Shown in pieces: positions 80 through 7,830 of a DNA stretch of 10,378 bases; within the stretch, counting starts at the first letter, position 1; each line of letters starts with the position of its first letter. The translations under genes and the position numbers were made by a program. This stretch comes from Pseudomonadota bacterium (GTDB lineage: Bacteria > Pseudomonadota > Alphaproteobacteria > Rhizobiales > Hyphomicrobiaceae): assembly GCA_021812845.1 (NCBI GenBank), contig JAKAML010000019.1, forward strand, positions 1 to 10,378. Reading direction: 5' to 3'. The notes below the pieces were generated by a model. That model had not been told where the DNA came from. It ran no database searches and was given only the letters and a program-made list of their open reading frames with translations.

Positions 80-382
80 ATGAGGTCTCTTGATGGCGCT
101 TCGGTTGCCCAATCCCAACCGCGCAGCGAGCGCACCCCCTACCACTTCCGGCCGATGGCCGAGCTTACCCACGAGGAGCCGGTCGAGATGGCGCTCGCCG
201 TCTCCGGCCGCGTCGTCACCGGGCGGTTGATTCGGGGCATCGTCGCGCCGTGCTCGCGCACGTTCGTGCAGTGGGAAAGCGGCACCTGGGTCGTGTGCAC
301 GCCGATCGGCTGGCGCGAGTTCGTCACGATCGACGTGCTGGCAGAATGGAAGCAGCGCGAGCAAGGCAAGGTGGCGGCATGA
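80..382 (+). CDS. Small phage protein of unknown function, 100 aa
   Basis: I do not recognise this protein. The start at 80 is chosen because GGAGG at 66-70 sits 9 bases upstream; an in-frame ATG at 50 has no such site. The first 25 residues are polar and contain an in-frame copy of the longer palindromic repeat (95-124, read as GASVAQSQPR). The likely folded part begins near residue 26 and looks beta-rich, with alternating hydrophobic residues around VVTGRLIRGIVAP, FVQWESGTWVVCTP and FVTIDVLAEW. No signal peptide or membrane helix is seen. Its stop overlaps the next start (ATGA at 379-382), so the two are probably translationally coupled. Confidence 0.7.
   Translation: MRSLDGASVAQSQPRSERTPYHFRPMAELTHEEPVEMALAVSGRVVTGRLIRGIVAPCSRTFVQWESGTWVVCTPIGWREFVTIDVLAEWKQREQGKVAA
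95..124 (-). repeat. About 30-bp hairpin repeat, family Q copy A
   Basis: The plus strand reads GGCGCTTCGGTTGCCC, five variable bases (AATCC), then CAACCGCGC. The inner stem is GGTTG/CAACC and the outer stem GCGC/GCGC, with TTC bulged on one side. It differs from the copy at 4439-4471, read on the minus strand, only within the five variable loop bases. It lies inside the N-terminal part of the 80-382 gene. The strand given is arbitrary for a palindrome. Confidence 0.7.
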
Positions 383-642
383 GCTATCCGATCCCGCCAG
401 GGCCCGGCCGCGGGCCGGTCGAGGCGTGCGAGTGGTGCGGCGTGGTGCTGCTCGTGGCCGTCATCGCCGGTTGCTACGTCGCCGGCTTCGGCTACTCGGG
501 CTGGCTCGCCATCGCCATCGGCCTGCACGTCTGGCTGCTGGGCTTCCTGCTCGTTCGGCATCATGCCGCAGGCGCGTCTTCGACACGACCCGGCAAGACG
601 CAGACGCCCACCGACAAACCCCCTCACACGAAGCCGGAGTAG
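379..642 (+). CDS. Small inner-membrane protein with two predicted helices, 87 aa
   Basis: Two hydrophobic stretches are visible, about residues 21-38 (VVLLVAVIAGCYVAGFGY) and 40-59 (SGWLAIAIGLHVWLLGFLLV), joined by a very tight turn. They are followed by a polar tail rich in Thr, Pro and Lys. This is the pattern of a small helical-hairpin membrane protein with both ends in the cytoplasm. The ATG overlaps the stop of the previous gene (ATGA). No holin or spanin signature is clear. A holin is possible on size and topology, but the position within an early-type operon does not favour lysis. Function is unknown. Confidence 0.7.
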   Translation: MSYPIPPGPGRGPVEACEWCGVVLLVAVIAGCYVAGFGYSGWLAIAIGLHVWLLGFLLVRHHAAGASSTRPGKTQTPTDKPPHTKPE

Positions 643-645
643 CCC

Positions 646-1875
646 GTGGCCGATCCTCGTCATGTCTGGTTCAGCGTCGCGGCCTCGCCGCCGCCCGTGG
701 GCGTCGTGGTGCTGGTCATCTGGGACGGCCGGGCGGCCTTCGAGGCGGCGCGCGTCGTCGATCCACGTGCGCGGCGGCCAGCGCGCGGAACGCGAGTCGC
801 CGGGCACCAGCGAGAATGCTGGCTCACGCATGACAAGGGCCGTGCCGTGCTGCTGCCCGCCGACATGGACCCGCCGGACCCGCGCCGGCCGTGGGCCGGC
901 TGGCACACGCTGCACGGGGATGCGCCCGACTATTGGCGGCCGTCGCACCCGGAGAAGTGGCAGCTCCCGCTGCCCGCGCCGGCCTACATCCAGACGCCAT
1001 CGGAGCCATGTCTGGGGCATGCTTCCAGCATGACCCGCATGTGGTCGAGCACCGATCGGCCGCGCAGGTCGGCGGAGCCTGCCTCCGGCAGGACGGCGAT
1101 CGACCAGGTGGCGCGCGTCGGCATCGACGGCATGAGCGCCGCCGAGCTGGCGCGTGCAATGGAGGATATGCGCGCAGAGGCCCGCGCCGGCGCGCCGCAG
1201 GACGAGCCGCCGCCTGACGCACAATGGTGGCTCGATCCGCACGCCGTCACTTACTCGGCGCCGGGCGCCATCACCATGCGCGAGGCCGAGGGCCGTCTGA
1301 TGCGCGCCTTCGCAGCCGAGTGGTGGGTGCGCGTCGAGTGGCCACGGCTCAAGACGGCTGCCCAGGTGCTGGCCAATATGGCGAAGTCGCTGCCGCTGCC
1401 GCCGGGCGAAGCCGCCGCGCAGGACCCGATCTTCGCGCGGCCCCAGCCCACCGGCCGCGACCAGGACGACATGCTGGTGGCGCTGGGCTGGCTGCGCATT
1501 CTCCCGCGCGTGACCTGGAAGACGGTTGGCACGGTGCATCTCGGCCGTGCCGGCGTCGCCAAGGTGAAACAGAACGTGGGTGAGGTCGGCAACCCGCTGA
1601 ACCGCGGCGCCGAGGTGCTGCGCCTGCGCGCGAGCACGCCGCCGCTCACCTGGCGCCGGATCGGCGACGAGATCGGCCGGCCAGCCGAGGCCGCCCGCGA
1701 CCTCTACCGGGCGGCACTGGCCGAGGTGACGGCAGCGGCGAACGGGACGGCGACGGCGGAAGTCGAGGCGGTGCGGGCCAAGCGGCAGGCGGAGCGCGTC
1801 CGACTCGATGCGCTGAAGGCAAACAAGAAACAGGCAAAGACGGCGGCGCACGACGCGGCGCGCATGGAGGGGTGA
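646..1875 (+). CDS. Two-part phage protein: DUF551-like N-terminus and DUF6362-like HTH C-terminus, 409 aa
   Basis: It starts at GTG 646, with GGAG at 636-639 six bases upstream and the previous stop at 640-642. Residues 6-112 look like the DUF551 family of phage proteins: an initial W-F-S-V, a G-V-V-V-L-V strand, and a closing YWRPSHPEKWQLPLPAP. Residues 210-365 resemble DUF6362, with MLVALGWLRILPR and a helix-turn-helix-like stretch TWRRIGDEIGRPAEAARDLYRAAL near 335-358. Residues 370-409 form a basic Ala/Lys/Arg helix. The linker (about 113-160) carries two in-frame palindromic repeats, read as HASSMT (125-130) and PASGRT (145-150). A fusion of two phage genes across repeat DNA is a plausible origin. 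Family assignments are from memory of sequence style. A DNA-binding role is inferred. Confidence 0.7.
   Translation: MADPRHVWFSVAASPPPVGVVVLVIWDGRAAFEAARVVDPRARRPARGTRVAGHQRECWLTHDKGRAVLLPADMDPPDPRRPWAGWHTLHGDAPDYWRPSHPEKWQLPLPAPAYIQTPSEPCLGHASSMTRMWSSTDRPRRSAEPASGRTAIDQVARVGIDGMSAAELARAMEDMRAEARAGAPQDEPPPDAQWWLDPHAVTYSAPGAITMREAEGRLMRAFAAEWWVRVEWPRLKTAAQVLANMAKSLPLPPGEAAAQDPIFARPQPTGRDQDDMLVALGWLRILPRVTWKTVGTVHLGRAGVAKVKQNVGEVGNPLNRGAEVLRLRASTPPLTWRRIGDEIGRPAEAARDLYRAALAEVTAAANGTATAEVEAVRAKRQAERVRLDALKANKKQAKTAAHDAARMEG
1017..1034. repeat. 18-bp palindromic element, family P copy 2
   Basis: GCATGCTTCCAGCATGAC, with arms CATGCT and AGCATG around TCC. It lies within the interdomain linker of the 646-1875 gene and is read as HASSMT. 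Confidence 0.75.
1077..1094. repeat. 18-bp palindromic element, family P copy 3
   Basis: GCCTGCCTCCGGCAGGAC, with arms CCTGCC and GGCAGG around TCC. Relative to the CAT/ATG copies, the outer triplets have changed together to CCT/AGG, so the stem is kept. It is read as PASGRT in the linker of the 646-1875 gene. Confidence 0.75.
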
Positions 1876-1876
1876 C

Positions 1877-2596
1877 ATGGATCCGGAATTGGTGAAACTG
1901 CAACGGGAGGCAGAGGCGCAGGCGTTCGCGGCACGTCTCGGCATGACATCTGGGCAGCGCGCCTCCGGCGCGACGGCGGTCAGGCTGCCGCCGAGAACTC
2001 CAATCGGGGCTGGCGCGCGTCAGCCGGCGAGGGGCGCGGCGGAGCCGCAGCCGAGCCGTCAAGCAGAGTACGTCGACGACACGCCGCGCCGGCCGCGACG
2101 CAGCGAGATCGAGATCGAGGCCGAGGGCGAGCTGGACCACTATTGGGTGACGGTGGTGTCGATCGAGCGGCCGGTGCCGCGCCACTTCGGCGATAACCGC
2201 GGCATGCTGCCGATCTGGGTCGAGGCGCACGCCGACTGGCGGCAGTCGGGCCGCACCTTCGACCAGCAGCAGCCGTCGGAGGCGATGCGCGCCATCCGCC
2301 TGGCCGTGCTCGGCTGCCGCTCGGACGCGCATGCCCGCCGGCTGAAGGCGGCGCTCGACGAGGCGCTGGTCGGGCGCGCGAGCGACCTCGACGCGGATCC
2401 GCTGCGGCTGCGCTTCCGCAACGGCATCGACTTGGGCGACCTCGACGGCTGGTGGACGCCGCTGTTGCTCGACGTGTTGCTGCGCTGCGAGGCCGCCGCG
2501 ACCGACTTCGAGGTCTTCAACCGCGACGACCACGAGCGCATGGTGGCCGAGCGCGTGGCGCTCAAGGTGCGGCTGCAGAAGGAAGGGCGGCGGTGA
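1877..2596 (+). CDS. Phage protein of unknown function, 239 aa
   Basis: The start ATG at 1877 follows GGAGG at 1866-1870 and lies one base after the previous stop. I do not recognise a family. Residues 1-22 form a charged amphipathic helix. Residues 23-84 are a low-complexity Ala/Pro/Arg linker that carries an in-frame palindromic repeat (1957-1974, read as RASGAT). Residues 85-239 look globular, with a beta-like segment ending in HYWVTVVSIERPVPRHF, a helical stretch near EAMRAIRLAVLGC, and a conserved-looking GWWTPLLLDVLLRCEAAATDFEVFN near the end. The stop overlaps the next GTG start, so it is co-translated with the zinc-ribbon gene. Confidence 0.7.
   Translation: MDPELVKLQREAEAQAFAARLGMTSGQRASGATAVRLPPRTPIGAGARQPARGAAEPQPSRQAEYVDDTPRRPRRSEIEIEAEGELDHYWVTVVSIERPVPRHFGDNRGMLPIWVEAHADWRQSGRTFDQQQPSEAMRAIRLAVLGCRSDAHARRLKAALDEALVGRASDLDADPLRLRFRNGIDLGDLDGWWTPLLLDVLLRCEAAATDFEVFNRDDHERMVAERVALKVRLQKEGRR
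1957..1974. repeat. 18-bp palindromic element, family P copy 5 (CGC/GCG arms)
   Basis: GCGCGCCTCCGGCGCGAC, with arms CGCGCC and GGCGCG around TCC. The outer triplets are again a matched pair (CGC/GCG). It is read as RASGAT, in the same phase as the copies in the neighbouring gene. A loose half-copy, CTCGGCATGAC, ends about 11 bases earlier. Because the arms are pure GC, chance similarity is a little more likely here than for the other copies. Confidence 0.6.
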
Positions 2597-2805
2597 CGGA
2601 CAACAAAGGGCCGCGGATGTGGCGCGGTCGGGAGTGGCACGGGCCGTGCCCAGGCTGCCGCAAGCTGACGTTGCTCCCGACGTGTCTCGACAAGCCGAGC
2701 GATGTGCGGTGTTGCTGGTGCGGGCACGAGTTCACGGTCGCCCAGTTCTACACGTCAGTGAAAGCAGGCGGCTGGTGGACGGCGGAGGAGGCCGCGAAAC
2801 GATGA
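2593..2805 (+). CDS. Small zinc-ribbon protein, 70 aa
   Basis: GTG at 2593 overlaps the previous TGA (GTGA). The protein has CPGC near residues 19-22 and CCWCG near 40-44. These two CxxC knuckles about 18 residues apart are the layout of a zinc ribbon. The remainder is basic and aromatic (MWRGREWHGP at the start, WWTAEEAAKR at the end). Small zinc ribbons in phages often bind nucleic acid or RNA polymerase, but no target can be read here. Its stop overlaps the next ATG, so the chain of coupled genes continues. Confidence 0.7.
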   Translation: MTDNKGPRMWRGREWHGPCPGCRKLTLLPTCLDKPSDVRCCWCGHEFTVAQFYTSVKAGGWWTAEEAAKR

Positions 2806-3203
2806 TCCGGCTCTACACCGCCAGCAAGCTGCACCATGCCGACAAGTGGCGGGCGCTGTGCGCCACGAGCCGCCACGTGCAATGCCATGCCCGCTGGCTG
2901 AAGCACACCGCCATGGGCACGCCCGACACGGCCGAGCACGCCGCCGAGTTCTGGCTGCAGGACGAGCAGGACGTGCGCGACGCCGACGCGGTGCTGGTCT
3001 ACGCCGAGGCCGGCGACCACCTGCGCGGCGCGCTCGTCGAGGCTGGCATCGCCATCGCCGCCGGCATTCCGGTGATCGTGGTCGGCGAGCATCCCGACTA
3101 CGGCACCTGGCAGCATCACCCCGGCGTGCGCCGCACCGCCGACCTCGAACAGGCGCTGCGGTTGCTCGATGGCGTGCAACCGCGTTACAGGAGGGAGGCA
3201 TGA
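2802..3203 (+). CDS. Nucleoside 2-deoxyribosyltransferase-like protein, 133 aa
   Basis: The protein opens with a beta strand and turn (MIRLYTASKLHHADKW), typical of the small flavodoxin-like fold of nucleoside 2-deoxyribosyltransferases and related N-glycosidases. A central D-x-D-A-V-L-V-Y (about 60-67) is followed by GALVEAGIAIAAGIPVIVVG (about 76-95). That matches the family pattern of a helix bearing a Glu (E80, candidate nucleophile) followed by a G-x-P-V-I strand. Enzymes of this group break or exchange the bond between base and deoxyribose in nucleotide salvage. A phage version could recycle host nucleotides or act on a nucleotide signal. The fold is fairly clear, the substrate is not. 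The start overlaps the previous stop (ATGA), and the end overlaps the next gene. Confidence 0.65.
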   Translation: MIRLYTASKLHHADKWRALCATSRHVQCHARWLKHTAMGTPDTAEHAAEFWLQDEQDVRDADAVLVYAEAGDHLRGALVEAGIAIAAGIPVIVVGEHPDYGTWQHHPGVRRTADLEQALRLLDGVQPRYRREA

Positions 3204-3448
3204 GCGACCGCGTCAACCCTCACACAGGCCGGAGGCCGTTCGAGCGCGGGCCGTGGCATCGGTTCTTCGCTTGGACACCCCGCCTCACCGGCTTTGATCC
3301 GCGTGTCTCGGGCGGCGTTGTGTGGTTGCGCTGGGTGTGGCGGCGTGAGCAGGCCGACGGGTACGGGCATCCGTACATCCGCTACGAGGTTGACCGCGGA
3401 CTCGGAGAGCCGAAGGTCGATCGCGATTGGCAGGACACTCGGCTGTGA
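3200..3448 (+). CDS. Small basic phage protein of unknown function, 82 aa
   Basis: The ATG overlaps the previous stop (ATGA) and is preceded by a strong purine-rich site, GGAGGG at 3190-3195. The protein is basic and unusually rich in Trp and Arg (WHRFFAW, VVWLRWVWRREQ). No cysteine pairs, membrane helix or known motif is seen. It may be a small adaptor or nucleic-acid-binding protein, but no function can be assigned. Confidence 0.6.
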   Translation: MSDRVNPHTGRRPFERGPWHRFFAWTPRLTGFDPRVSGGVVWLRWVWRREQADGYGHPYIRYEVDRGLGEPKVDRDWQDTRL

Positions 3449-3453
3449 AACAT

Positions 3454-3500
3454 CCTGCGGCCGGCAACCGGCAGGACCTTTGAACGTCCTGCGCAGGAGG
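3454..3500 (+). promoter_or_regulatory. Nested inverted repeats over a Shine-Dalgarno site
   Basis: The short gap between two genes contains CCTGC (3454-3458) facing GCAGG (3471-3475), then GCAGGAC (3471-3477) facing GTCCTGC (3486-3492), then the palindrome CCTGCGCAGG (3488-3497). The last runs into the AGGAGG (3495-3500) that serves the ATG at 3506. The arms compete, so the mRNA could switch between an open and a partly covered ribosome site. The geometry is seen directly; any control role is inferred. Confidence 0.35.
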
Positions 3501-3505
3501 AAGCG

Positions 3506-3760
3506 ATGCACATCAAGAAAATGACGATCGAGACGCACGACGGCATGGTCTTCGAAGCAGATGGGTCGTCGATCGCAGAGCTGATCGTCGAAAATCGCAC
3601 GCCCGTAGGCGTAGAGTTTGGTGGTCGGCATCGCCATACCGGCGAGCGGATCGTCTCCGTGACGATCAAGGCCGTGTGCCGCTATTTCGATCCAGACCTA
3701 GCCGCCGGAAGGCGGCGCCAGCGAGCCGGCGTTTTACCCCCGCCTTGGGAGGAAGAGTAA
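3506..3760 (+). CDS. Small phage protein of unknown function, 84 aa
   Basis: ATG 3506 follows a near-perfect AGGAGG at 3495-3500. The first 60 residues look like a small beta-rich domain (MTIETHDGMVFEADGSS, ELIVENRTPVGVEFGG, RIVSVTIKAVCRYF). The end (AAGRRRQRAGVLPPPWEEE) is low complexity. It is encoded by hairpin-forming DNA, GCCGCC (3701-3706) facing GGCGGC (3711-3716), so the tail may have been added by repeat DNA. No family recognised. Confidence 0.6.
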   Translation: MHIKKMTIETHDGMVFEADGSSIAELIVENRTPVGVEFGGRHRHTGERIVSVTIKAVCRYFDPDLAAGRRRQRAGVLPPPWEEE

Positions 3761-3764
3761 GCCC

Positions 3765-4064
3765 ATGAAGATCGTGTGCGACGCGACGAACAACACCCCC
3801 GAGACCATCGCCAATGGCGAGCTGCACGCGAGCTTCGTGCCGGAGACGCCGCTGGATATCGCCGCCCTGGTCGCCGCCAGGGCTCGGGACCTGGCGGCCG
3901 ACCCGGATGACATCGCCGTCGAGGCCGATCCCGAGGACGCGACCAAGATCATCGTGACGCGCCGGATGGCGCCTCATCTCGAGGCGCTGGCAATACCGGC
4001 AACGGTTCGTTTCGAGTTGCCGCTGCCGGTTGCCGACCCCGGTGACGACGGTTTCCAGGGATGA
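3765..4064 (+). CDS. Small acidic phage protein of unknown function, 99 aa
   Basis: The start is preceded by GGGAGGAAGAG at 3747-3757, partly overlapping the end of the previous gene. The protein is acidic, with DIAALVAARARDLAADPDDIAVEADPEDATKIIVTRR in the middle: a helix followed by a beta-hairpin-like stretch that could be a small compact domain. The end is FELPLPVADPGDDGFQG. It is the last convincing gene of the plus-strand operon, and repeat-rich DNA without a convincing gene follows. Function unknown. Confidence 0.6.
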   Translation: MKIVCDATNNTPETIANGELHASFVPETPLDIAALVAARARDLAADPDDIAVEADPEDATKIIVTRRMAPHLEALAIPATVRFELPLPVADPGDDGFQG

Positions 4065-4125
4065 GCGACGGTTGCCGGCGGGTGCCGCGCGGGGGACCGG
4101 AAGGGCCACAAACGCGGGCCATGCA

Positions 4126-4150
4126 ACGGTTTTTGAGCCCCGGAAACCGT
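4126..4150. repeat. Hairpin with TTTTTGAGCCC core, copy 1
   Basis: ACGGTTT (4126-4132) faces AAACCGT (4144-4150), a perfect 7-bp stem around an 11-base loop. The 11-base string TTTTTGAGCCC (4130-4140) recurs exactly in a second hairpin at 7922-7940. It is AT-rich relative to its surroundings. Confidence 0.5.
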
Positions 4151-4163
4151 AGCCGGAAACCAT

Positions 4164-4196
4164 CGGCGCGGACGCGGGTGGGCATCCGAAGCGCCG
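4164..4196 (-). repeat. Hairpin repeat, family Q copy D
   Basis: Read on the minus strand: outer arm CGGCGC, bulge TTC, inner arm GGATG, loop CCCACCCG, inner arm CGTCC, outer arm GCGCCG. It has the same 33-base layout as the copy at 4439-4471. The inner stem there is GGTTG/CAACC; here a T-A pair has become A-T and a second pair has become a G-T wobble. These paired changes keep the fold. It lies in DNA with no convincing gene. Confidence 0.75.
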
Positions 4197-4234
4197 GAAA
4201 CCGAGCTGGCGCTGGGCGCGGCCGGCAACCCGAG

Positions 4235-4315
4235 GCAACTGGTTGCTTGGCCGCTCCGGGGCAAGCCCCGACGCGGCTGCCCGCGCGGGCGCAGCGATGC
4301 GGAGCATCGCTCCGC
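4235..4315. repeat. Cluster of short perfect palindromes
   Basis: In 81 bases: GCAAC-TG-GTTGC (4235-4246), CGGGGC-AA-GCCCCG (4257-4270), GCCCGCGCGGGC (4279-4290), GCGATGC-GGA-GCATCGC (4294-4310) and GCGGAGC-ATC-GCTCCGC (4299-4315). The last two share bases and cannot form together. No T-run follows any of them, so ordinary terminators are unlikely. Confidence 0.6.
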
Positions 4316-4318
4316 GAT

Positions 4319-4340
4319 GGCGTCGGCACCCGAAGCGCCG
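4319..4340 (-). repeat. Hairpin repeat, family Q copy E (short form)
   Basis: Read on the minus strand: GGCG, then CTT, CGG, loop GTG, CCG, A, CGCC. It keeps the GGCGCTTCGG start of the family and the two-tier stem, but the inner stem and loop are shorter than in the 33-base copies. Confidence 0.6.
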
Positions 4341-4395
4341 ACAAGAAAGTGGCTCGGCAATGATTGGGGCGGTGTAGATACAAGCACGAGGCAAC

Positions 4396-4429
4396 AAAAA
4401 GCCCCGTGACCAGTGGTGGCCACGGGGCT
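4396..4429 (-). terminator. Rho-independent terminator of the leftward membrane-protein gene
   Basis: AGCCCCGTG (4400-4408) faces CACGGGGCT (4421-4429), a perfect 9-bp GC-rich stem with a 12-base loop. On the minus strand the stem is followed directly by a run of five T (AAAAA at 4396-4400 on the plus strand; the first pairs in the stem). It lies 54 bases beyond the stop of the 4483-5484 gene. There is no T-run on the plus-strand side, so it acts leftward only. Confidence 0.85.
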
Positions 4430-4438
4430 GGGTAGGAT

Positions 4439-4471
4439 CGGCGCGGTTGTGGGTGGGCAACCGAAGCGCCG
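4439..4471 (-). repeat. Hairpin repeat, family Q copy B (best-preserved)
   Basis: Read on the minus strand: CGGCGC, TTC, GGTTG, loop CCCACCCA, CAACC, GCGCCG. Both stem tiers are perfect and TTC is bulged on one side. It sits between the stop of the leftward gene (4483) and its terminator, so it would form in the 3' untranslated part of that transcript. Confidence 0.8.
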
Positions 4472-4482
4472 AAGAGACAAGC

Positions 4483-5484
4483 TCAGGCGGCCAGGGCGAT
4501 CCGAAGCTCACGCCCCTCGCGAGTGACGGTGAGCTGGCCGGAAACCTCGCGCCAGCGCTTCGAGGCCTCACCCTTCGTCACGCCCATCTCGGTCGCCAAC
4601 TCGTCGTTGGAGAGCGGGCGCTTCGTCCGGCGCAGGGCCACGATCACGGGGTGGTCATGCGGAACGCATGCCTCCGGCATGACCGGAATCGGGGCGGAGT
4701 GCCCGCCGTTGGTCGGCGGTGGCGTCGGCGCGCTGGTTGCGGTGCGGGCAACCGAAGGCGGGCGAACGTTGTCGTTGGCCATGGCAACCGGCATGCGGCT
4801 TGGCCGGTGGGCGAACCCGAAGCCGAAGGCCACGATGGCGGCCAGCTCGAACAAAAGCGCGTAGAGAAAGGGCTCGATCAGGTGAAAGACCTCCTTCGTG
4901 CGCTCGCGTTCGAAGCCGATCAGCGCGGCAACGCGGGCCGCCCGGTCAGCCTTGGGGGCTGCGACCTGGCGGGGACCGATCTTGCCGAGCTTGGTCTCGA
5001 GCAGGGCGACGTGGCTGCGCACCTCGGCGGCGCGCTGCTGCCAGTCCTTGCAGTTGCGGCCACAGCCGCCCTTGCCGGTCTCGATCGCGACCATCCGATC
5101 CGCGTCAGCAAGGCGCTGCTTGGCGGTGGCGAGGTCGGTCTCGGTCTCGTCGCGCTGGGCGTTGTGATCCTCAACCGTCAGCGCCGCCGTGTCGGCCGTG
5201 GCAGCCTGCCGGCCTACGGAATTGTAGACGGTGGCGAAGGTGCCAAGCGCGAACAACACGGCGAAGCCCGCCGCAGAGATCAGGCGCCATTCGCGCAGCG
5301 CCGAGCCGATCAGGTGGCCGGAGGCGATGGTGATGGCGACAACGATCGGCATGAGGGCGTGCTCAAGCTCCCAATGCCCGGTGCGCAGAGCGTCCGAGCA
5401 CAGGATGGCGAGAGCGCCGCCGGTGGCGGCGAAGCCCGCCGCTCTTGCGAGCCAGCGGGAAGCGGTGGTAGTGGTGTTAGACAT
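4483..5484 (-). CDS. Membrane protein with periplasmic coiled coil and cytoplasmic winged-helix-like tail, 333 aa
   Basis: The start at 5484 follows GGAAGGAAAG on the minus strand. Four membrane helices are likely: about 11-30, 42-62, 67-88 and 201-225. With the N-terminus inside, the loop 89-200 falls in the periplasm. It is charged and heptad-like (DETETDLATAKQRLADADR; EVRSHVALLETKLGKIG) and holds CGRNC (141-145), a possible disulfide or metal site. Residues 277-333 would be cytoplasmic and look like a winged helix: HPVIVALRR, LSNDELATEMGVTKGEASKRWREV as helix-turn-helix, then TVTREGRELRIAL as the wing. The linker (about 227-276) contains two palindromic repeats, read as SVARTAT and VMPEAC. 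It may be a membrane-bound regulator that passes an envelope signal to DNA. No family name is recognised; function is inferred. Confidence 0.85.
   Translation of the reverse strand: MSNTTTTASRWLARAAGFAATGGALAILCSDALRTGHWELEHALMPIVVAITIASGHLIGSALREWRLISAAGFAVLFALGTFATVYNSVGRQAATADTAALTVEDHNAQRDETETDLATAKQRLADADRMVAIETGKGGCGRNCKDWQQRAAEVRSHVALLETKLGKIGPRQVAAPKADRAARVAALIGFERERTKEVFHLIEPFLYALLFELAAIVAFGFGFAHRPSRMPVAMANDNVRPPSVARTATSAPTPPPTNGGHSAPIPVMPEACVPHDHPVIVALRRTKRPLSNDELATEMGVTKGEASKRWREVSGQLTVTREGRELRIALAA
4666..4683. repeat. 18-bp palindromic element, family P copy 4
   Basis: GCATGCCTCCGGCATGAC on the plus strand, with arms CATGCC and GGCATG around TCC. It lies inside the 4483-5484 gene, which runs on the other strand, and is read there as VMPEAC, just before the winged-helix-like domain. 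Confidence 0.75.
4730..4759 (-). repeat. Hairpin repeat, family Q copy C
   Basis: On the minus strand: TTC, GGTTG, loop CCCGCACCG, CAACC. The core TTCGGTTGCCC is identical to copies A and B, but the outer stem is degraded. It lies in the linker of the 4483-5484 gene and is read as SVA, the same codon phase as copy A in the 80-382 gene. Confidence 0.65.
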
Positions 5485-6131: not shown

Positions 6132-6422
6132 ATGCTCGAAAACATGGCTCAGAAGGGAAAAACAGGCGTATCGGCCGCCATGGGAGCGCCGGAGTATCGC
6201 GACGCAATCGCGGCTCTCGGCTACAGCCAGCAGGCGTTTGCAACGCTGGTTGGCGCGTCGCCGCGAACGGGCCAGAAGTGGGCGCTCGGCGAGTCGCGGG
6301 TGCCCGGTAGCGTGGCGCTGCTGATCCGACTTCTGATGGCCCGGCCCGAACTTAAGCCCGTGGTGGAATCGATGACGGCGCTGGCGGTCAGGGTGCGGCG
6401 CGAGGGCAAGGCTGCGGCGTGA
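6132..6422 (+). CDS. XRE-type helix-turn-helix regulator, probable phage repressor, 96 aa
   Basis: Residues 22-69 form a compact helix-turn-helix domain: YRDAIAALGYSQQAFATLVG, then ASPRTGQKWALGESRVPGSVALLIRLL. The recognition helix is around SPRTGQKWALG (43-53). The remainder is a short basic C-terminus with no peptidase or dimerisation domain, so it is closer in size to Cro or small XRE repressors than to full CI. Start 6132 has AAGG at 6120-6123 eight bases upstream; an in-frame ATG at 6144 is also possible. It lies directly beside two related operator palindromes, which supports a role in controlling the leftward promoter and its own synthesis. The domain is clear; the lysogeny role is inferred. 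Confidence 0.8.
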   Translation: MLENMAQKGKTGVSAAMGAPEYRDAIAALGYSQQAFATLVGASPRTGQKWALGESRVPGSVALLIRLLMARPELKPVVESMTALAVRVRREGKAAA

Positions 6423-6494
6423 CCCGTTTTGGACCCTTGCTGGGGAAAAATCGGCAATTCGCCCCGGAAATCGACCGACGAGGTGGGGGAAGAG

Positions 6495-6821
6495 ATGCGG
6501 GCTTTGGTCGTTGGTTGTGGTGTGGCGGTCGGGGCGATCTCGGCGGTTGCGCAGAGCAGTGATCTGCGCGGCACGGAGATCGTGGGCTATCATGCCACTG
6601 CGGTGTCGCTGGCGACGCAGAAGTGCGGCGGCGAAATCGGACGGGCGCTGCGCGACTTGGCTAACATGCACGATGCCGACTTCCGCTTTGGCATGAGCCG
6701 CGCCATCGGCGACTGGAGCCAGAAGCTCTCGGGAGATGCAGCCAACGCCTGCGCCGCTCTGCGCAGCCAGTACGGCCCGAGCGGAACGGTTGTCCCCGGC
6801 GCTTGGGTGCTGCCTAGGTAA
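6495..6821 (+). CDS. Small exported protein with signal peptide, 108 aa
   Basis: ATG 6495 is chosen because GGGGGAAGAG precedes it and it begins a good signal peptide, MRALVVGCGVAVGAISAVAQS, with likely cleavage after AVA (about residue 19). In-frame sequence upstream would bury this signal. The mature part is about 88 residues, mostly helical, with two cysteines (TQKCGGEIG and AANACAALR) that could form a disulfide in the periplasm. A conserved-looking stretch is MHDADFRFGMSRAIGDWSQKL. No family recognised. Standing next to the repressor, it could be a lysogenic-conversion or superinfection-exclusion protein. That is a guess from position and export. Confidence 0.7.
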   Translation: MRALVVGCGVAVGAISAVAQSSDLRGTEIVGYHATAVSLATQKCGGEIGRALRDLANMHDADFRFGMSRAIGDWSQKLSGDAANACAALRSQYGPSGTVVPGAWVLPR

Positions 6822-6893
6822 CGGCCGCAAGAATGGGCCTTGACGGATAACCGCGAATCTGTGCGAATCGTTGGCATGCTCGCGAGAGCTATG

Positions 6894-6925
6894 GCCGGAT
6901 GGGGAAACCCCTCCGGCTTTCGCGT
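6894..6925 (+). terminator. Rho-independent terminator after the exported-protein gene
   Basis: GCCGGA (6894-6899), one unpaired T, GGGG, loop AAA, CCCC, TCCGGC (6912-6917), then TTTCGCGTTT. The stem is ten GC-rich pairs with one bulge, and the tail is T-rich though interrupted. It ends the repressor/exported-protein unit and separates it from the packaging and tail genes. No clear promoter was found between it and 7055. Confidence 0.7.
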
Positions 6926-7054
6926 TTCTGGGGCGCGGTAAGGCCGCCTTTCCGCACTTTGGCGCTCACGGCCACAGGCCAGCGCATCACCCGACCGGGC
7001 ACACGAGACAAGGCCCGCCGACCCAAGCCCTGGAACATATCGCAGGACAGCCGC

Positions 7055-7276
7055 ATGACCGCCGCCGCGCCACACGTCGCGCCGATGATCGATGTCGTGC
7101 CGATCGCCGCTCGCGTCTTGACGCCGCAGGTGATCTGCTGGTCGCACAACTGCCGCGAGGAAGCGAAGATCGGCGACGCGCTGGTTGGCTTCGGCAACCG
7201 TGGCGGGCTGCACTACAACGACCTGTGCTGCCCGCGCTGCGGCGCCAAGTGGCGGCAGTTCGTAGTGGCGGGCTGA
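7055..7276 (+). CDS. Small metal-binding phage protein, 73 aa
   Basis: The start at 7055 is chosen because AGGA (7044-7047) lies seven bases upstream; longer in-frame starts run back through the terminator hairpin. Cysteines occur as ICWSHNC and then, about 27 residues later, LCCPRCG, giving C-x4-C and CxxC pairs that suit a zinc-ribbon-like site. Between them is a Gly-rich segment (DALVGFGNRGGLHYND). The protein ends KWRQFVVAG. It lies just upstream of the tail and terminase genes. No specific role can be named. Confidence 0.65.
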   Translation: MTAAAPHVAPMIDVVPIAARVLTPQVICWSHNCREEAKIGDALVGFGNRGGLHYNDLCCPRCGAKWRQFVVAG

Positions 7277-7278
7277 GC

Positions 7279-7830
7279 ATGGCGACCATTGCGTTCAAGT
7301 GGCAGGGCAACGGCATTGCCCGGCTGACCGCCGCGGTCGACAAGCTCGAAGGACCGCGCAAGCGGGCCGCGTTACGTCGTGCCGTCAACCACACGGGCGA
7401 CAAGACGTTCACGGTGGTGAGGCGCGTTCTGGCGAAGGAGATGGGCCTGACGCAGGCCGACCTTCAACGGCGCGGCCTCTCGAAGCGGAAGGCGAACGAC
7501 GCCAGCCTCACCTACTCGATCATCGGTCGTGGCAAGCATATCCCGCTGAAAGACTTTGCTTCTCGCCAAGGCGCTCGTGGCGTGTCGGCGGCCCCGTGGG
7601 GCATCCGGCGCATGTTCAAGCACACGTTTATCGTCGCCTCCATCGGCGGCAACGTGTTCAAGCGCATCGGCAAGAAGCGGCTTCCGATCGAGAAGCTGTG
7701 GGGTCCGGCCGTCCCGCGCGAGATGGTGCGCGAGGCCACGGCAACAGCCTTCCAGACCACCGTGGCAGCCAACCTGCCAGGGCGAGTTGAGCATGAGGTT
7801 CGCGTGCTCACCGACGGCGTGGTGTCCTAG
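7279..7830 (+). CDS. Phage minor tail protein, GpZ-like, 183 aa
   Basis: The sequence fits the prophage minor tail protein Z (GpZ) family. An early helical part has ALRRAVNHTGDKTFTVVRRVLAKEMGLTQADLQRRGLSKRKA, and later come IPLKDFASRQGARGVSA, KHTFIVASIGGNVFKRIG and KRLPIEKLWGPAVPREM. The R-x-P-I-E-K-L-x-G-P-x-V-P signature is characteristic. In lambda, GpZ helps complete the tail tip that joins the head. The ATG lies two bases after the preceding stop, with only a weak ribosome site (GGCGGGCTGAG), so translation is probably coupled. Its place before the terminase genes is unusual: lambda has Z after the head genes. Confidence 0.85.
   Translation: MATIAFKWQGNGIARLTAAVDKLEGPRKRAALRRAVNHTGDKTFTVVRRVLAKEMGLTQADLQRRGLSKRKANDASLTYSIIGRGKHIPLKDFASRQGARGVSAAPWGIRRMFKHTFIVASIGGNVFKRIGKKRLPIEKLWGPAVPREMVREATATAFQTTVAANLPGRVEHEVRVLTDGVVS

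Follow-up and report, generated by a model that had tools for sequence, protein, structure and literature searches.

An untagged REP-like hairpin family in Hyphomicrobium-type bacteria and some phages, probably spread as single strands

Introduction

Repetitive extragenic palindromic (REP) sequences are short bacterial hairpins that, in the available sections of PMC3733652, fall mostly into two classes, tagged GTAG and CGTC. Those sections describe families with few head-to-tail pairs and mostly inverted ones, place copies also downstream of genes and sometimes inside them, and argue that many REPs are transcribed. The GTAG class comprises REPs, bacterial interspersed mosaic elements (BIME) and REPINs, and is served by a REP-associated tyrosine transposase (RAYT, or TnpA-REP; PMC3733652; PMC6006769, as far as available). 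Here we analyse a hairpin family first seen in a 10,378-nt stretch of alphaproteobacterial DNA (the window; contig JAKAML010000019.1, assembly GCA_021812845.1). The evidence makes it fairly probable that this is an untagged REP-like family of Hyphomicrobium-type bacteria and some phages that spreads as single-stranded hairpins, by a mechanism for which we can offer an indirect case.

Read on its own strand, the unit is GGCGC-TTC-GGxTG-CC[C/G]AC..-CAyCC-GCGCC preceded by a T-rich stretch. It thus consists of a T-rich 5' flank and a hairpin of about 31 nt whose outer stem (GGCGC/GCGCC) and inner stem (GGxTG/CAyCC) are separated in the 5' arm by a TTC bulge; its loop starts CC[C/G]AC. The GTAG system, in the parts of PMC3733652 and PMC6006769 at hand, resembles it in being a short, bulged, multicopy hairpin that lies mostly between genes, forms clusters and has alternative complementary residues in its stem. 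Unlike that system, the present family carries no GTAG or GTGG tag, has no associated RAYT, and forms head-to-tail pairs in its hosts where REPs are mostly inverted. Like a REP, it is a multicopy short palindrome of mostly extragenic placement; unlike a REP, it does not occur mainly as inverted pairs. The CGTC REPs of Alphaproteobacteria (including dRS3, RPE-4 and RPE-6) are likewise intergenic, sometimes within genes, and without a known dedicated transposase in the available text of PMC3733652, but the family here lacks the CGTC tag and an A-T at the first two stem positions, and has a loop of 6-8 nt or more (vs 4-5) and a bulged stem of 5+5 bp (vs 8-9 bp). Because the 5' foot bears no tag and pair orientation differs, the family belongs, as tested, to neither described REP class, though it is REP-like.

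Two further systems are similar in part. One copy here adds in-frame amino acids to a gene, as do Rickettsia palindromic elements (RPE) or in-frame miniature inverted-repeat transposable elements; RPE are ~150 bp long according to the portion of PMC10969869 available, vs about 36 nt here, and our copies lie mostly between genes. The ends of IS200/IS605 elements, which act on the lagging-strand template (PMC6006769, in the part available), share a single-strand hairpin, a T-rich 5' flank and strand-linked behaviour. Unlike them, the family lacks both a neighbouring transposase gene and defined ends of the element; this is a resemblance only.

Results

Copies in the window

The window is the whole of contig C15 of a 2.04 Mb genome that is 54% complete, and its proteins include phage-type small and large terminases and a neck/tail protein. 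An initial annotation had proposed five related hairpins here. Four of them contain the exact motif GGCGCTTCGGNTGCC, at 95-124 (plus strand), 4164-4196, 4319-4340 and 4439-4471 (minus strand), compared with 0.03 matches expected from 200 dinucleotide shuffles, and are matched by our first covariance model, R1; the fifth, at 4730-4759, proved only marginal. The copies are listed with their scores against R1 and, for two of them, a second model, R2; copies D (4437-4482) and B (4162-4207) were themselves in the R1 training set.

Copy A, 83..128, plus strand: hairpin 95-124 with a pyrimidine-rich 5' flank (83-94); R1 38.5 bits, E 6.2e-9; exact core motif
Copy B, 4162..4207, minus strand: hairpin 4165-4195 plus 5' flank; R1 48.8 bits, E 1.1e-11; supported by its fold
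Copy C, 4279..4351, minus strand: full copy with a 30-nt loop insert (about 4292-4321); R1 28.7 bits, E 2.6e-6; R2 33.3 bits
Copy D, 4437..4482, minus strand: hairpin 4440-4470 plus 5' flank; R1 55.4 bits, E 2e-13; supported by its fold
Copy E (marginal), 4730..4760, minus strand: inner hairpin only by R1, 14.9 bits, E 0.012; R2 24.7 bits, E 0.0066

Copy D, which lies directly behind the stop of a minus-strand gene (4483..5484), folds better than its shuffles: none of 200 did as well, as RNA or as DNA. For copy B the counts were 0/200 as RNA and 5/200 as DNA. The folds of copies A (17/200 shuffles at least as good as RNA, 9/200 as DNA) and E (17/200 and 45/200) are not exceptional. Copy C is longer than the 4319-4340 first noted, with its 3' arm at ~4283-4291 of the minus strand, beyond the insert. 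It is complete only if the 30-nt loop insert is allowed; energy minimisation predicts another fold for it. The inner stems given earlier for the two 33-base copies, GGATG/CGTCC (4164) and GGTTG/CAACC (4439), are correct.

Co-variation and unit structure

R1 was based on an alignment of 39 copies. Variation in this alignment is found mainly at the inner pair x-y (A-U 19, U-A 11, G-C 6, C-G 1, other 2), because the outer stem was fixed by the way copies had been selected. A second alignment took in 150 of 188 model matches, 135 of them distinct, and the 150 were used to build R2. Among the 135 distinct copies, x-y is A-U in 64, U-A in 48, G-C in 16, C-G in one and something else in six. The outer stem, invariant in the training set, varies as well: one pair changes from G-C to C-G in ten copies, and the pair at its base is G-C in 101, C-G in five, U-A in four and A-U in two.

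In the same 135 copies, 97.5% of stem cells are paired (89.5 +- 0.4 in shuffled alignments), and double changes number 88 (22.6 +- 3.4 shuffled, and at most 10 in slid registers). Four pairs show a double change, as against 2.4 in shuffled alignments, a value reached by 2/500 shuffles. This excess is not a probability, because the copies had been aligned to fit the structure, with no control for relatedness; the outer-stem swaps nevertheless lie outside the training data. The claim of a conserved fold with changing sequence holds against both types of control.

In some copies one arm has gained a C and the opposite arm a G, with the bulge position retained. The bulge is TTC in nearly all copies, the three exceptions being TCC, TTT and TCT; thirteen copies have A in place of the G behind it, and the loop motif also occurs as CCTAC, CCCAG and CCCAA. 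On the element strand, G-T pairs occupy 7 cells vs 19 for A-C pairs, 13 of these at one position. Since the bulge and the loop motif are kept on a stem that co-varies, some factor appears to recognise the folded single strand. Where x is G, the loop mostly starts CCGAC, not CCCAC (exceptions at loci L053 and L202), which may mark a subfamily or a third interacting base.

Distribution among genomes

The exact pattern gave 41 matches in seven of 60 genomes, including the four in the window's own; read backwards as a control, it gave none in the same 60. Within the same bacterial family, R1 found copies in 16/36 genomes, the window's own among them, and in other families in 1/24. With R2, 46 of 103 genomes of the family carry matches, again counting the window's own, and 57 do not; a class-wide sample of 189 other genomes gave none at E <= 1e-4. 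Copy number runs from one to at least 83 per genome (at least 83 in G001; at least 82, about 18 per Mb, in the single-contig genome G069), these counts being lower bounds because only top candidates were scored. The initial annotation had proposed such a covariance search of phage and host genomes, naming a lack of further copies in related genomes or of excess covariation as evidence against its reading; with many further copies found and the excess present, neither outcome occurred.

Placement and arrays

We called genes with our own hexamer-based caller. Only five of 99 host copies lie in called genes and 94 lie outside: one of 53 in G001, three of eight in G002 (all near one end of one gene), none of 12 in G003, 14 in G031, eight in G015 or one in G027, and one of three on the other contigs of the window's genome. 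At viral loci, 5/24 copies are in called genes. The G001 copies are between convergent genes in 29 cases, tandem genes in 21 and divergent genes in two, with one in a gene. Across all sets, viral included, copies between tandem genes have the same orientation as the genes in 33 cases and the opposite in 26.

Neighbouring host copies within 150 nt of each other are direct in 53 pairs and inverted in four, one of which is a copy nested in another. Spacers are repeated within an array and differ between arrays, as expected from local tandem duplication. Sites also differ between relatives. At one convergent gene pair in hosts, the clusters differ between G003 and G002, and the G001 stretch there is shorter and has no match to the core pattern. 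A copy-dense phage contig (3300035000_000010) has, 3' of its sheath gene, two head-to-tail copies, each behind TTTTAGTT, and one inverted copy; at the same site in relatives we found one marginal inverted copy (L231) or no model match (L228, L229, L230).

In eight of 11 long-loop copies, copy C included, the loop itself contains a further palindrome or hairpin-like insert, judged by eye (window 4279-4351; L020:1320-1395; L179:8324-8397; L019:4865-4937; L024:9985-10075; L025:4794-4863; L207:10245-10310; L026:725-784). Six of the eight inserts start GTC and five end GAC, a likeness to CGTC-type repeats; the insert of copy C does neither. It looks as if the hairpin loop were a preferred insertion site for CGTC-like palindromes. 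The remaining three differ: L198 carries another kind of insert, L193 spans two copies that overlap, and within L190 lies a family copy in inverted orientation.

Carriage by phages

On viral DNA the exact pattern occurs in 14 stretches of eight contigs. Proteins were scanned for six of the eight: five encode portal, terminase, head, sheath, baseplate, integrase or Mu-type tail proteins, and the sixth a primase. The dense phage contig has 22 model matches in the 21.5 kb examined, several of them closely following stop codons. This is roughly 50 times the host density, a figure biased upward because this phage, like the window, was found through carrying copies. Relatives identified by its sheath protein are far sparser under R2: L228 and L229 have one match each (21.5 kb each), L230 none (5.5 kb) and L231 one marginal match (4.1 kb). 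Among eight loci with relatives of the window's terminase, only L219 has weak hairpin matches (one with R1; two with R2, 25-28 bits). In L024, a 444-aa gene beside a hairpin copy (6342-7676) is absent at the same place from a 99% identical relative. We considered it as a mobile gene and rejected this, as it has no Pfam match.

Strand tendency

In G069, 75 of 82 copies and 26 of 30 clusters are on one strand. GC skew on this element-rich strand is positive in 18/20 sampled 20-kb windows, and a scan of both strands of those 400 kb gave 14 plus and no minus matches. The skew is one-sided along the single 4.47-Mb contig (G069:C1, L236-L255), unlike in an ordinary two-replichore chromosome, and the contig's order or orientation may be artificial.

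The leading strand is commonly taken as the G-rich strand. By cluster, the element strand is the local G-rich strand in 26/30 cases for G069, 17/25 for G001, 7/10 for G015, 7/7 for G031, 1/1 for G027, 9/10 for G070, 4/7 for G096, 3/5 for G080 and 1/1 for G097. With three contrary or mixed genomes (G003, G002 and G000; see Discussion) counted in, the total is 77/107 (p 6e-6), or 51/77 without G069 (p 0.006), in a tally that mixes windows of 3-60 kb with cluster distances of 3 and 10 kb, includes several skews near zero and draws on a sample of the copies. One genus shows the tendency strongly; elsewhere it is only suggestive. That copies hardly follow gene direction yet tend to follow a replication strand speaks for single-stranded DNA, more than mRNA, as the active form.

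Searches for an enzyme and for known classes

Both transposase models we used gave matches in control genomes, E. coli among them. Among the 16 carriers, the RAYT model NCBIfam NF047646 passed its cut-off in one (four at E <= 0.001), and Pfam Y1_Tnp (PF01797) was present in three (G003, G070, G096); G069, with 82 scored copies on one contig, has no RAYT match. No copy scored above 17 bits at the 12 loci around Y1 or RAYT matches (best 16.5 bits). On the two models and this neighbourhood scan we rejected a link to RAYT. None of the 95 non-array copies has a GTAG, GTGG or CGTC tag at its 5' foot (0-2 nt 5' of the hairpin for GTAG/GTGG). The tag scoring covered the 5' foot; at the 3' end, the flank has no CGTC consensus. 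Of the suggested affinity to REP or RAYT-type elements, the interspersed REP-like hairpin is supported and the RAYT is not.

We also rejected an intrinsic terminator, as the T-rich stretch is 5' of the hairpin and becomes A when read from the opposite strand, and a known structured RNA, since no Rfam 15 covariance model matched at the copies (one chance-level match fell elsewhere in the window). The family is not described in the open-licence titles and abstract beginnings that we searched, a range too narrow to establish its absence from print. The main text of PMC3733652 contains neither the word 'Hyphomicrobium' nor the word 'phage'.

Discussion

Our proposal is that the hairpin is recognised in single-stranded form as DNA, with the lagging-strand template as the likeliest setting, and that a putative trans-acting activity spreads it. 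Arrays would then arise through local tandem duplication, and phages would acquire copies and move them from host to host. Since our searches did not turn up the usual enzyme, either some other enzyme is at work or spread now proceeds only by tandem duplication and phage-borne transfer. A bolder version is possible but rather doubtful: a third, untagged class of REP-like sequence whose single-stranded hairpins spread at replication forks without RAYT, through another activity on single-stranded DNA, with phages amplifying and ferrying the copies and the loop serving as a recurrent landing site for palindromes of the CGTC type.

Several results weigh against spread as single strands. The searches of carrier genomes yielded no mobilising enzyme. 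No clean single-insertion junction or empty site was found, and the differences between sites span whole stretches. Neighbouring phage copies are nearly balanced (6 direct, 7 inverted pairs). Agreement with the G-rich strand is contrary or mixed in G003 (2/5 clusters), G002 (0/3) and G000 (0/3), and without the genus of G069, G070 and G027 it falls to 41/66 (p 0.06). The structure-fitted alignment and uncontrolled relatedness, noted above, also count here.

The strongest alternative is that the hairpin acts as RNA, as a 3'-end stabiliser or protein-binding element whose protection of host and phage messages would account for its maintenance and spread. Copies are mostly beside gene 3' ends, several in the dense phage sit close behind stop codons, the fold is kept despite letter changes, and many REPs are transcribed according to the sections of PMC3733652 cited above. 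Against it, the copies between tandem genes hardly follow gene direction; G-T pairs are fewer on the element strand than A-C pairs, which would be G-T on the other strand; and no copy matches Rfam. We regard the RNA explanation as unlikely. An ordinary RAYT-mobilised REP whose tag or enzyme we missed would account for the bulged hairpin, the intergenic placement, the clusters and the Y1 genes of a few carriers, but the uniform lack of tags, the single carrier over the RAYT cut-off and the absence of any RAYT match from G069 largely refute it, and we consider it quite improbable.

A polar motif for chromosome maintenance or recombination, of the KOPS or Chi sort, would have its orientation selected and so fits the strand tendency. 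It is hard to reconcile with a sequence missing from more than half of the family's genomes and varying so widely in copy number, with turnover of sites between relatives, or with strand agreement that is far from complete, and we hold it to be highly improbable. Chance hairpins in GC-rich sequence might be suspected from the marginal copy E and from the folds of A and E, which are no better than those of many shuffles. The excess of exact matches in the window, the silence of the reversed pattern and the lack of matches across the rest of the class refute this for copies A to D, and leave chance with next to no probability.

How REPs multiply without RAYT is an open question, posed for the CGTC repeats in the available sections of PMC3733652. 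The present family offers a test case: a single-contig genome combines 82 scored copies with the lack of a RAYT match, close relatives differ in their sites, and phages can be copy-rich. Should finished genomes bear out the strand tendency, it would point to a replication-linked step open to direct testing. Phage transport of hairpins, if true, would be a route of spread that the consulted part of the REP literature (PMC3733652) does not mention.

Neighbouring genes and other sequences in the window

Two genes of the window contain copies of the hairpin.

80..382, plus strand: 100-aa gene whose N-terminus holds copy A, reading MRS-LDGASVAQSQPR-SERTP where homolog P0058 has MQS-SERTP; the gene caller's start at 155 speaks against this reading
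4483..5484, minus strand: 333-aa phage-type gene of unassigned function that contains copy E

Compared with the only other homolog found, the 100-aa product has an extra 12 aa (36 nt), corresponding to the element and part of its flank. The extra stretch is N-terminal and the called start is downstream, so a difference in start site is possible. Both in-gene copies do read S-V-A in the same phase, as first noted, but by the gene caller the first gene begins only after copy A. In the 333-aa protein, copy E makes no clean extra stretch, unlike copy A. The viral search returned no relatives of this protein, and the phage collection gave no near match.

Between copies C and D, at 4400-4429 on the minus strand, AGCCCCGTG...CACGGGGCT followed by TTTTT looks by eye like an intrinsic terminator for the gene at 4483-5484. 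The gene at 2802-3203 is at the Pfam cut-off for nucleoside 2-deoxyribosyltransferase. Another family of palindromes, shorter than the hairpin studied here (GTCATGCCGGAGGCATGC and the like), occurs at 17-43, 1077-1102, 1957-1982 and 4666-4691. On the minus strand, these palindromes start like the CGTC-tagged REPs in the available text of PMC3733652, and where the copy at 4666-4691 lies, the 333-aa protein has ~7 residues (VMPEACV) more than its homologs.

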